Source of the DNA: Asticcacaulis excentricus
GTDB lineage: Bacteria > Pseudomonadota > Alphaproteobacteria > Caulobacterales > Caulobacteraceae
Direction of reading: 5' to 3'
DNA: 64,000 nt
Assembly: GCF_003966695.1 (NCBI RefSeq)
Contig: NZ_AP018827.1
Span: forward strand, 1,716,501-1,780,500
Positions 26,761 through 59,494 of this stretch are shown one piece after another (positions within the stretch are counted from its first letter, which is position 1; every line of letters begins with the position of its first letter). Below the pieces are notes generated by a model. The model was not told where the DNA came from, ran no database searches, and saw nothing but the letters and a program-made list of their open reading frames with translations. The position numbers and the translations under genes are program-made.

Positions 26761-27741
26761 ATGATGATCTTCCTCATCGCCTTTCTGAGCTTCGTTATCC
26801 TCGCTTCGGTCGGTTTCGTCCTGACCGGCGGCGGGACCTCTGAGGTTGCGGCCAAACGCGCTCAGGCCATCGGGATGGGTGCCACCACGGCGGCCAAACG
26901 CAAAAGTCAGCGAACCGCCGCCAGCCGCACCCCTGAGGAACGCCGTAAGCAAATTTTGCTGCAACTCAAGGAATCCGAGCAGCGCGAACGCAAGGCGCGT
27001 CTGTCACTGACGGCGCGTTTGCAACACGCTGGCCTTACCCCCAATGTGAAGACCTTCTGGATATGGTCTGTGGCGCTGGGCATAGTCGCGGCGGTGATCG
27101 TTCTCATCCTCAGCCGCATCCCTCTGGCGGCGCTGGGTGCCGGTTTTGCCTTTGGCTACGGCGCGCCACGCTGGTGGCTGTCGTTTCTGGCTAATCGCCG
27201 CACGGCGAAATTCACCGCCAATTTCGCCGATGCGATCGACATTCTGGTGCGCGGCATCAAGTCGGGCCTGCCCGTACATGACGGCCTGAAGATCATCGCT
27301 AAGGAACTACCGGCGCCTCTGGGCCCGGAATTTCAACGCCTGAACGAAAACATCGCCATCGGCATGGGGCTGGACATGGCGCTCGAAAAAATGTGCGAGC
27401 GTATGCCGACTCCGGAACTGCGTTTCTTCACCATCGTCATTGCCATCCAGCAAAAGACGGGTGGTAACCTCGCCGAAGCGCTCGGCAACCTGTCGCACGT
27501 GCTGCGTTCACGGCGCATGATGCGCGAAAAGATCAAGGCCCTGTCGTCCGAAGCCATCGCCTCGGCCTGTATTATCGGCGTCCTGCCGCCGGGTGTGGGG
27601 ATGATCATCTATGTGACCAATCCCGGTTACATGGGCACGCTGGTCAGTGACCCGCGCGGCAATATTATGCTTCTGGGGGGCGCCATCTGGATGACCTTCG
27701 GCGTCCTGATGATGCGTAAAATGATCAACTTCAAATTCTAG
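26761..27741 (+). CDS. tadB: Flp pilus inner-membrane protein TadB (CpaG)
   Basis: Platform protein of the pilus motor. 326 aa with N-terminal helix, a cytoplasmic region, two helices near residue 105-140, the T2SSF domain (FADAIDILVRGIKSG, IAIQQKTGGNLAEAL) and two C-terminal helices. Followed after 16 bases by tadC, its expected partner. Confidence 0.94.
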   Translation: MMIFLIAFLSFVILASVGFVLTGGGTSEVAAKRAQAIGMGATTAAKRKSQRTAASRTPEERRKQILLQLKESEQRERKARLSLTARLQHAGLTPNVKTFWIWSVALGIVAAVIVLILSRIPLAALGAGFAFGYGAPRWWLSFLANRRTAKFTANFADAIDILVRGIKSGLPVHDGLKIIAKELPAPLGPEFQRLNENIAIGMGLDMALEKMCERMPTPELRFFTIVIAIQQKTGGNLAEALGNLSHVLRSRRMMREKIKALSSEAIASACIIGVLPPGVGMIIYVTNPGYMGTLVSDPRGNIMLLGGAIWMTFGVLMMRKMINFKF

Positions 27742-27757
27742 GGTAGGGCATTTTCAT

Positions 27758-28738
27758 ATGAAAGACTTAGCCTATGCCCTGATACAGCCCGCCAATATGA
27801 TCGCCATTGCGGTGGCGGTGCTGTCCTTTTTTGCGGTGCTGACGCTGATGCGCTCGTCCCTGTCGGGGGAACAGTTGGACAAGCGGATGAAGGCTGTGGC
27901 GCAACGGCGCGAGGAACTGCGCCGACAGTCACGTCAATCCATGGTTCAAACCAGCAACAGCGGCCTGCGCCAGACCGACGAAAGCCTGTACAAGCGGATC
28001 GTTGATCGCCTGAACCTGAAGACCCTGCTCGAAGACCCCAAGGTGGTGGACAAGCTGGCCATGGCCGGTTTCCGCGGGCCCAAACCCATTACCACCTTCT
28101 ACTTCTTCCGCTTCCTGATGCCTTTTGTGCTGGGGGCGTTTGCGACCTTCTACATCTATGTGGTCAACGATTTCGGACAGCCGCCGAACATCAAGATCCT
28201 GATCTGCGTCGCCATGTTCGTCGCCGGCTACTACGCCCCAAACATCTATATCAGCAACATCGCCTCCAAGCGTCGCGCCACAATTGTGTCGGCCTTTCCC
28301 GACGCGCTCGACCTGCTTCTGATCTGCGTCGAAGCGGGTATGTCGATCGAAGCCGCCCTGCAAAAGGTGTCGCAGGAAATCGGCTCGGCCTCCATCGAAC
28401 TGGCCGAAGAACTGTCGCTGCTAGTAGCTGAACTGTCCTATCTGCCCGAACGCCGCATGGCCTATGAGGGGCTGGCGCGCCGCACCAACTATCCGGGGAT
28501 CAAGTCGGTTTGTACGGCGATGATTCAGGCCGAAAAGTACGGCACTCCGCTCGGCACGGCCCTGCGTGTTATGGCCAAGGAAAACCGCGAACTGCGTCTG
28601 TCGGCGGCGGAAAAGAAGGCGGCCGCCCTGCCCGCGCAGCTCACCGTGCCGATGATCGTCTTCTTCCTGCCGGTGCTGTTCGTGGTCATCCTGGGCCCGG
28701 CCGCCCTCAACATCATGGATATGATGGGCAAGAAGTAG
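27758..28738 (+). CDS. tadC: Flp pilus inner-membrane protein TadC (CpaH)
   Basis: Second platform protein; 326 aa with the T2SSF domain (FPDALDLLLICVEAGMSIEAAL) between paired membrane helices, ending in PLPV-like FFLPVLFVVILGPAALNI. Last gene of the cpa run. The next gene begins 68 bases later behind its own LexA box, so the pilus transcript likely ends here. Confidence 0.93.
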   Translation: MKDLAYALIQPANMIAIAVAVLSFFAVLTLMRSSLSGEQLDKRMKAVAQRREELRRQSRQSMVQTSNSGLRQTDESLYKRIVDRLNLKTLLEDPKVVDKLAMAGFRGPKPITTFYFFRFLMPFVLGAFATFYIYVVNDFGQPPNIKILICVAMFVAGYYAPNIYISNIASKRRATIVSAFPDALDLLLICVEAGMSIEAALQKVSQEIGSASIELAEELSLLVAELSYLPERRMAYEGLARRTNYPGIKSVCTAMIQAEKYGTPLGTALRVMAKENRELRLSAAEKKAAALPAQLTVPMIVFFLPVLFVVILGPAALNIMDMMGKK

Positions 28739-28766
28739 CGTCGGTCAGACTTGCACCGCACACTCG

Positions 28767-28781
28767 GAACATATAAAGAAC
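28767..28781 (+). promoter_or_regulatory. LexA (SOS) box before the FAN1-exonuclease gene
   Basis: GAAC-N7-GAAC, the exact reverse complement of the alphaproteobacterial LexA box GTTC-N7-GTTC. The box ends 25 bases before the ATG, where it would overlap a promoter. Supports DNA-damage induction of the nuclease gene. Confidence 0.8.
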
Positions 28782-28806
28782 ATGATGACACGCCAGAAGG
28801 TCGATC

Positions 28807-30951
28807 ATGTCGCGTTTTCCTGTCCTGCCGCCGACCTATTACCATGCGCATTTCAGTGAAATGCTAGCCTTTGTGCGCGACGTCTATGCCAGTGTTCTGG
28901 GGGAGGCGGAGCACGCCTTTATTACGGATTTTGCAGGTCTAAGCCTTGAGGCCCAATGCCTGTTTATCCGCATGTCGAATCGCAAACGGCCGGTGTTTAC
29001 CATTGCTGACCTCGTCTATGCCGAGATCGGTGAGATCGAATGGCGGCTGGAGGAGCTGGTCGAGGCCGGGTTCGCGCGTCGCGCTTGCGCCGAAGATTAC
29101 CGGTCGTGGCTCGATACCCTGACGCGGCCCGTACTTGAGCAGATAGCGCGTGACCACGACATCGCCCTGTCGCGCCAGTGGTCGAAGGCGCAGGTGGCAC
29201 GGGCGGTCGAACAGACCCTGCCGTTCGCGGATTTCGCCACCGGTTTTTCGCACACCACCTGGGTGCCGGGGCATCGGGAGACGGTGGGCTTCCTGCTCTA
29301 CCTCTATTTCGGCAAGCTGAGCGACAATCTGACGGCCTTTACCCTGCGGGATCTGGGCGTCGTCTCGGTGCGCGGCGAGACGGCCTATCAGGCGCGCTTC
29401 GTCAGCCGTGAGGAGGCGCTGGGCGGCCATGCCTATACGCAGGCGCTACGGTCGTTAAAGGGGGCAACACCAGAGGATTATCAGCGACTGGCCGAACACG
29501 CCAGCACCCTCCCCTCCCCCGCCACGCCGTTTGTCGAAGGCCTGCGTGACCGGCTGATGCATGATCTGGGGCGCTTCTTTGAACGCCAGAAGGACACGGA
29601 TCAGGCCATTGGTTTTTACGCGCAATCGGGCCTGTTCGAGAGTCAGGAACGCACCATCCGTTTGCTGCACGGGCGGGGCGAGACAGAGCACGTGCTGGGC
29701 CTGCTGGAGTTCATGCTCGACGCCCCGGCGCACGATGAGGCCTTCCTGTTCGCCGACGACTTCTACCGTCGCAAGTTCGGCAAGAAACGCACCAGTGCGT
29801 TTACCGACCTGCTGCGCGACGGCGAAGAGATCAATGCCGACGACCTCTATCGCGGCCTTCCGGAACTGGCGGCCATCCGCCATTACGAGGCGCAGGGCTG
29901 GACGGCGCACCACGTTGAAAACGGCCTGTGGCCGGCCCTGTTCGGCCTGCTGTTCTGGGACGAGCTGTTTGAGCAGCCCGGATCACTGGCCTCGGAATTC
30001 GACTGGATGCCGCAGGCCCTGAAAGACAATCGCTTCGCCGCCCTGTTCCCGCACGCCGTGACAGAGCGTCTAGATGCGCTCGAAACGGGTCGTGGCTGGC
30101 CGCTGATTGCCGATACCCTCGCCCGCCACGAAGGCCGTGAGAATGGCGTCTTCGGCTGGTGGCCGGGTTTAGGGGACCTGCTGCGTGACTTTCTGAACGT
30201 TGCACCGCCTAAGGCCGTGCGCGACATAATGGCGGCCCTGTGCAGCGATTTTCAGGGCTTACGCGACGGCTTTCCCGACCTGCTGCTGATCGGTCCGGGC
30301 GGTGTCAAATTTATCGAGGTCAAGGGCGAAGGCGATCAGGTGCGCCGGCATCAACTCGCCCGGCTCAACCTGCTGCGGCAGGCGGGATTTGAGGCCGGTA
30401 TACTGCGCGTCGCCTTCCGCCCCGACCCGGATCAGGTCTATGCGGTGGTCGATATCGAGACGACCGGCGGACAGGCGGCCTATGAGCGCGTCACAGAGAT
30501 CGGCGCGGTCAAAATCCGCAATGGTGAGATCATCGACACCTGGCAAAGCCTGATCAATCCCGAAAGGCGCATCCCTCCGTTCATCACCGAACTGACCGGC
30601 ATCAGCAATGCGATGGTCCGCGACGCTCCGCGCTTTGCCGACATTGCCGACGATTTCGAGGCCTTCCTGAAAGGCACGGTCTTCGTCGCCCACAATGTCA
30701 ATTTCGACTACGGCTTCCTGTCGGCGGAATACCGGCGACTGGAACGGCCCTTCCGCTATCCCAAACTGTGTACCGTGGCGTCGATGCGGCGGCACTTTCC
30801 CGGGCTGGCGGCCTACGGACTGGGGCCGTTGTCGCGTGAGTTTGGCATTGAACTAAAACATCACCACCGCGCCCTGTCGGACGCGATGGCGGCAGCGGAA
30901 TTGCTGAAAATGGTCAATGAGAAGCGGCTGTCTGCCGTTACGGCTTTTTGA
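28807..30951 (+). CDS. FAN1-type VRR-NUC nuclease fused to a DnaQ-like 3'-5' exonuclease
   Basis: 714 aa. Residues 1-540 follow bacterial FAN1: a SAP-like region (about 110-145), a helical middle, the conserved ENGLW...LLFWDELF segment with E371, and a VRR-NUC site with D491, E504 and K506 (FPDLLLI, FIEVKGEGDQVRRHQ). FAN1 incises flaps and unhooks interstrand crosslinks. Residues 545-705 form a complete DEDDh exonuclease: D549/E551 (VVDIETTG), D634 (AHNVNFDYGF), H687 and D692 (HRALSDA). Both active sites look intact. The two domains are in one frame with no internal stop. An exact LexA box lies just upstream. Its 3' end overlaps the convergent gene by 14 bases. Bacterial FAN1 is usually about 550 aa without the exonuclease. 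Confidence 0.88.
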   Translation: MSRFPVLPPTYYHAHFSEMLAFVRDVYASVLGEAEHAFITDFAGLSLEAQCLFIRMSNRKRPVFTIADLVYAEIGEIEWRLEELVEAGFARRACAEDYRSWLDTLTRPVLEQIARDHDIALSRQWSKAQVARAVEQTLPFADFATGFSHTTWVPGHRETVGFLLYLYFGKLSDNLTAFTLRDLGVVSVRGETAYQARFVSREEALGGHAYTQALRSLKGATPEDYQRLAEHASTLPSPATPFVEGLRDRLMHDLGRFFERQKDTDQAIGFYAQSGLFESQERTIRLLHGRGETEHVLGLLEFMLDAPAHDEAFLFADDFYRRKFGKKRTSAFTDLLRDGEEINADDLYRGLPELAAIRHYEAQGWTAHHVENGLWPALFGLLFWDELFEQPGSLASEFDWMPQALKDNRFAALFPHAVTERLDALETGRGWPLIADTLARHEGRENGVFGWWPGLGDLLRDFLNVAPPKAVRDIMAALCSDFQGLRDGFPDLLLIGPGGVKFIEVKGEGDQVRRHQLARLNLLRQAGFEAGILRVAFRPDPDQVYAVVDIETTGGQAAYERVTEIGAVKIRNGEIIDTWQSLINPERRIPPFITELTGISNAMVRDAPRFADIADDFEAFLKGTVFVAHNVNFDYGFLSAEYRRLERPFRYPKLCTVASMRRHFPGLAAYGLGPLSREFGIELKHHHRALSDAMAAAELLKMVNEKRLSAVTAF

Positions 30952-59479: not shown

Positions 59480-59494
59480 GTTCGTTATTTGTTC
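59480..59494 (+). promoter_or_regulatory. LexA (SOS) box before the ImmA/IrrE module
   Basis: GTTC-N7-GTTC, an exact alphaproteobacterial LexA box, in the AT-rich gap after amn, about 150 bases before the ImmA/IrrE ATG. A one-mismatch copy (GAAC-N7-TAAC) lies near 59560. The distance is larger than at the other two boxes, so the transcript start would have to be well upstream of the gene. Confidence 0.65.

Follow-up and report, generated by a model that had tools for sequence, protein, structure and literature searches.

A bacterial FAN1 nuclease fused to a DEDDh exonuclease and apparently placed under LexA control

We found that a single 714-aa frame in the window, that is, the whole stretch of 64,000 nucleotides analysed here, encodes a bacterial FAN1 nuclease followed by a DEDDh exonuclease, and that the gene is apparently under LexA (SOS) control, as supported in silico by a conserved upstream box of the type found in its lineage. 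The protein belongs to the known FAN1 family, and the added DEDDh domain is the variant. The reading that we favour, and consider probable, is that of a LexA-controlled repair enzyme in which a single polypeptide unites two nucleases of opposite polarity. The features are the following:

28767..28781, + strand: predicted LexA box GAACATATAAAGAAC, of the form GAAC-N7-GAAC, 25 bases before the ATG
28807..30951, + strand: fused FAN1-exonuclease gene, 714 aa plus stop
28837..29076, + strand: FAN1_HTH domain (PF21315), residues 11-90; Pfam 9.7e-19, 67.5 bits against a cut-off of 27
29917..29919, + strand: codon of E371, the FAN1 catalytic glutamate, in a VENG motif; kept in 93/93 fused rows
30109..30414, + strand: VRR_NUC domain (PF08774), residues 435-536, with D491, E504 and K506; Pfam 6.1e-14, 52.5 bits against a cut-off of 23.8
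30418..30438, + strand: linker of about 7 residues (538-544), from the last VRR-NUC strand to the first exonuclease strand in the predicted model
30445..30906, + strand: DEDDh exonuclease domain (PF00929, RNase_T), residues 547-700, with D549, E551, D634, H687 and D692; Pfam 3.2e-38, 132 bits against a cut-off of 24

The frame opens with an ATG and contains zero internal stops, and its start is fixed, since an in-frame stop lies 18 nt upstream of the ATG and the interval between them is free of start codons. The first-pass annotation had described one chain made of a FAN1/VRR-NUC nuclease and a DEDDh exonuclease; all three Pfam domains scored over their cut-offs, and the catalytic residues that it had named (E371, D491, E504 and K506 for the nuclease, D549, E551, D634, H687 and D692 for the exonuclease) stand exactly where it had placed them. 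The first part is assigned to FAN1 (the KIAA1018 subfamily of VRR-NUC) by the HTH domain, the VRR-NUC domain with its E, D, E and K, and the overall fold, and the second to the DEDDh family (RNase_T, DnaQ-like) by a domain with D, E, D, H and D in place. It is not an equivalog of Pol III epsilon (DnaQ), as TIGR01406 gave 89.8 bits against a whole-protein cut-off of 222.7. The fused protein is the sole VRR_NUC match in its own genome; a Pfam match to TPR_7 at residues 251-273 lies below its own cut-off.

Searching the solved structures by sequence, we obtained alignments with Pseudomonas aeruginosa FAN1 (PaFAN1) over residues 5-535 (4e-34) and with S. aureus DinG over residues 544-706 (4.8e-28). 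A structure prediction of the full length, which had been put forward as a check of the proposed architecture, agreed with it: the AlphaFold model, built with 20 fused relatives (mean pLDDT 89.5, pTM 0.77), has a predicted FAN1 fold and then a DinG/DnaQ-like exonuclease fold, with the last VRR-NUC strand ending at residue 537 and the first exonuclease strand starting at 545. Within the linker, D540-P541 is kept in 20/20 aligned fused rows. When the model was used as a Foldseek query, the top matches were complexes of PaFAN1 with a 5'-flap (E 5e-27, TM 0.76-0.78 by target length), followed by human FAN1, the DinG exonuclease domain (rmsd 1.8, 37% identity) and DnaQ-type exonucleases including Pol III epsilon.

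PaFAN1 (PDB 4R89, 5Y7G, 5Y7Q) shares with the fused protein the FAN1_HTH and VRR-NUC domains and, taking its residues from excerpts of PMC9635880, the same catalytic D, E and K; it stops after VRR-NUC, whereas the fused family adds the DEDDh domain, and it has Q-D where the fused family has R513-R514. Human FAN1 (KIAA1018) has in common the VRR-NUC catalytic core and the overall fold, but its aligned structures are without a DEDDh domain, and it differs also by the UBZ domain reported in the same excerpts (PMC9635880). For the exonuclease, the best-scoring NCBIfam domains are those of the PRK07883-type (NF005906) and DinG-type exonuclease-helicase proteins, in which the partner domain is another one; the whole-protein scores were 181 bits against a cut-off of 495 and 176.5 against 547.7, respectively. 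The closest parallel in design is the Bacteroidetes GIY-YIG domain exonuclease (COG0847), for which excerpts of PMC8565304 give a DnaQ-type exonuclease and an endonuclease domain on one chain together with LexA-type regulation; it carries GIY-YIG in place of FAN1 and is unrelated to the FAN1 part. By analogy, this suggests that SOS-controlled proteins joining a DnaQ-type exonuclease with an endonuclease domain may have arisen more than once.

The spread of the fusion was followed in genome samples that overlap partly. Near relatives were represented by 25 genomes of the genus (own included), 35 genomes of other genera of the family and 40 of the order. The fusion is present in 23/25 genus genomes and absent from the other two (G005 and G020), which means that the gene is not essential; two of the genus copies are imperfect, one being split at contig ends (G001) and one frameshifted near residue 60 (G018). 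No fused gene was found in the 35 family genomes of other genera, and the order sample held it in 3/40 genomes, all of one genus. At the level of the class, the FAN1 half occurred in 4/385 genomes as five genes, 5/5 of them fused. In the phylum sample, FAN1_HTH was found in 55/398 genomes at 56 places: 12 of these, spread over 11 genomes, are fused, an insert breaking one of the 12; another 33 proved on checking to be without the exonuclease, and 11 more count as unfused by frame length only. The order sample around a FAN1-bearing rhizobial genome gave 4/249 genomes and six places, five of fused length, with the exonuclease in all five, and a sixth that is a fragment. In the class sample around the gammaproteobacterial-type genome G726, FAN1 was present in 10/229 genomes, one below the cut-off, with two places of fused length, one of which was checked; in the phylum sample around Luteolibacter both of the two hits (2/194) have the exonuclease.

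We also scanned one genome per species with an alignment of the FAN1 half and took the best 80 of 259 relatives, a set that favours fused forms because the search patterns came from fused proteins. The exonuclease follows in frame in 79 of these best 80 of 259, the remaining locus (L081) ending at a contig edge; among the 79, one is cut within the exonuclease (L089) and three are broken or truncated (L093, L095, L149). Fused genes among the best 80 of 259 belong, among others, to Asticcacaulis, Bradyrhizobium, Rhodomicrobium, Mesorhizobium, Hellea, Robiginitomaculum and Neomegalonema, and further to Woeseiaceae, Thalassolituus, Alteromonadaceae, Luteolibacter and other Verrucomicrobiales. The fusion recurs in Alphaproteobacteria, some Gammaproteobacteria and Verrucomicrobiales. 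Among plasmid records, 6/72,556 matched at 1e-30, five of these covering 80% of the query or more, and the FAN1 half had no match at 1e-5 in 50,697 phage records. The 8.0-Mb alphaproteobacterial genome G456 carries two fused FAN1-exonuclease genes (L034, L036). At L072 (G491), the fused gene is split by about 1.3 kb with an opposite-strand frame that by eye resembles an IS3-type transposase.

In order to place the fused form, the FAN1 parts of 93 fused and 33 unfused proteins were reduced, at an identity threshold of 80%, to 62 and 24 sequences, respectively; the unfused rows are all from non-alphaproteobacterial Pseudomonadota, eukaryotic FAN1 was left out and the tree is unrooted. A quick IQ-TREE run gave one branch that parts the 62 fused from the 24 unfused rows (SH-aLRT 100), so that one joining event suffices. 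As far as sequences place it, the fused form is an old clade of Alphaproteobacteria, some Gammaproteobacteria and Verrucomicrobiales, marked by R513 (91/93 fused rows) and R514 (90/93). The first-pass annotation had called the architecture uncommon, and this holds in the sense that FAN1 is rare per genome (4/385 and 55/398), but the fused form is an established clade and not a local oddity. Among the matches listed by our literature search, which took in few subscription journals, neither a FAN1-exonuclease fusion nor LexA control of FAN1 was found.

The predicted LexA box lies where it had been reported, 25 bases before the start codon, and is kept in place and sequence upstream of the relatives: it was found in 23/23 genus loci and in 3/3 loci of the next genus, whereas the DNA on either side of it differs. 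The complement of the box, with one flanking base added on each 5' side, reads ATGTTC-TTTATA-TGTTC and fits exactly the Caulobacter LexA consensus (T/A)TGTTC(N6)TGTTC given in excerpts of PMC13384398. The bare pattern occurs three times in the 64-kb window against 1.9 expected, and 73 times genome-wide against 50 for the reversed pattern; it is too common to count alone and conservation was therefore used as evidence. A scan of 28650-28850 for sigma-70-like promoters gave no hit. In the own genome we surveyed 15 of these 73 sites, most of which had been selected because their spacers are AT-rich. By Pfam, the genes beside them include recA, lexA (two boxes), a Y-family polymerase and rarA (MgsA_C), as well as a Mg-chelatase-like protein, two radical SAM proteins and an IrrE-like peptidase; among the rest no SOS gene was recognised.

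Boxes of the type proper to each lineage accompany the fusion elsewhere. Within 300 bp upstream of the alphaproteobacterial fused loci, the alpha box is present in 54/59 (shuffle mean 0.56; 24/1647 in other windows), although these are not independent cases since many alpha loci are near relatives; the five without an exact box are L089, L093, L121, L123 and L156. The fused loci of Verrucomicrobiales have an exact TGTTC-N4-GAACA, which we take to be the LexA motif of Verrucomicrobia, in 5/7 cases, with a one-mismatch version in L131 and none in L142. In two Verrucomicrobiales genomes this motif occurs at only 7 and 4 sites (reversed control, 2 and 2), and in both one copy stands before lexA and one before the fused gene. 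Among 19 gammaproteobacterial fused loci, CTGT-N8-ACAG at ≤1 mismatch was found in 11 (shuffle mean 1.06, largest 4), of which 3/19 are exact and eight more have one mismatch, three of those lying >170 bases upstream; in an Alteromonadales-like/Oceanospirillales-like subset, picked after looking, it is present in 8/9 at ≤1 mismatch.

The unfused gammaproteobacterial FAN1 genes (L037-L066, L077-L079) carry boxes too: 22/33 have one within 200 bases at ≤1 mismatch, eight of them exact, against a shuffle mean of 2.09 (largest 7), and many of these loci are near relatives. SOS control would hence go with FAN1 and not with the fusion, and FAN1 at large may be an SOS gene that has been overlooked. 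The first-pass description of an SOS-controlled fusion thus stands for the conserved box but needs correction where it would make SOS control special to the fusion.

Both active sites are conserved. E371, D491, E504 and K506 are each present in 93/93 fused rows, and in the same 93 rows, which contain at least three genes twice (L073/L096, L075/L110, L035/L106), the exonuclease residues are kept in 93 (D549), 91 (E551), 90 (D634), 89 (H687) and 89 (D692). In comparison with five relatives, the FAN1 part gave dN/dS values of 0.10-0.26 and the exonuclease values of 0.06-0.09, which indicates purifying selection on both parts. In one Bradyrhizobium gene (L073 = L096), whose FAN1 part is intact, G replaces E551, and in three other Bradyrhizobium genes (L093, L095, L149) the exonuclease is broken or truncated and the FAN1 part whole. 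These altered exonucleases may be draft errors, or they may reflect a dispensable exonuclease or a natural separation of the two functions.

Exonucleases of the DEDDh family work in the 3'-5' direction. According to excerpts of PMC9635880, both PaFAN1 and its human counterpart incise 5' flaps a few nucleotides beyond the junction, possess a 5'-3' exonuclease activity and play a role in crosslink repair. In the working that we propose, RecA-driven cleavage of LexA would free the promoter and the protein would be made; the FAN1 part would, by homology, bind a 5'-flap or a stalled fork, for example at an interstrand crosslink, and cut the strand past the junction. The DEDDh domain, kept near by the short linker, would then trim the 3' end of the incision or a nearby 3' end, and this trimming would open a larger gap, leading away from the lesion, on which RecA or a polymerase could act. 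For the fused protein, a role in crosslink repair and a joint action of both nucleases are inferred; the short, kept linker together with the stronger constraint on the exonuclease suggests that the two parts would work in a coupled way. More tentatively, and with slightly less than even confidence, we propose that FAN1 could be a general SOS gene which in one old clade has become a self-contained, dual-polarity crosslink processor, combining unhooking from the 5' side with tethered 3'-end resection in one binding event, so that one protein would correspond to what separate nucleases do in eukaryotic crosslink repair. Bacterial crosslink repair is usually described as UvrABC plus recombination. 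A damage-inducible FAN1-exonuclease kept across distant lineages would, if true, represent a dedicated nuclease for crosslinks and offer a compact model of FAN1 incision coupled to end trimming; with boxes of three LexA types before FAN1 genes, a damage role is directly testable in common laboratory strains.

Other explanations place the two activities differently. The FAN1 part could repair crosslinks or flaps under SOS control while the exonuclease is a passenger, such as an in-trans proofreader behind the SOS polymerases that gains co-regulation and targeting from the fusion. The nearest sequence relatives of the exonuclease, which are DinG, PolC and epsilon-type domains, would fit such a role, as would the box type shared with SOS polymerase genes and the three Bradyrhizobium genes in which FAN1 is kept and a portion of the exonuclease is lost; the linker, however, is short and kept, and the exonuclease is the more constrained of the two parts by dN/dS, so that we regard a passenger as unlikely. 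Somewhat less likely again is a nuclease of broad use in the SOS response, acting on stalled forks, extrahelical loops or recombination intermediates, for which interstrand crosslinks would be only a minor substrate. SOS genes serve many lesions, and human FAN1 is tied, in published abstracts, to triplet-repeat extrusions and fork protection besides crosslinks, but the FAN1 role given in excerpts of PMC9635880 is crosslink repair.

An anti-phage or anti-plasmid nuclease, in place of a repair enzyme, could be imagined from the patchy distribution, the presence of some copies on large secondary replicons and the single copy disrupted by an IS3-type transposase gene. Against this stand the LexA boxes of three lineage-specific types, the conservation of the gene through one genus and the lack of matches to the FAN1 half in 50,697 phage records, and we consider such a function very improbable. 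The joining of two adjacent genes by a sequencing error has a practically negligible probability and was ruled out as a candidate: nothing spoke in its favour, and the frame is single in 23/25 genus genomes (with one copy split at contig ends and one frameshifted) as well as in 79 out of the 80 best-scoring of 259 relatives.

As for the surroundings of the gene, clustering of the flanking ORFs at 80 loci gave no usable conserved neighbour among the 12 largest clusters, several of which are frames overlapping the gene itself. In the window, two genes with Pfam T2SSF domains, TadB/TadC-like by position, lie immediately upstream on the same strand at 26761-28738. A similar radical SAM protein stands behind a LexA-type box both in the own genome (L168, C1:2193540) and in one Verrucomicrobiales genome (L182). 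Another LexA-type box, GAACAAATAACGAAC, is located in the window at 59480-59494 on the minus strand, and the gene that starts 149 bases past it matches the IrrE-like peptidase family.
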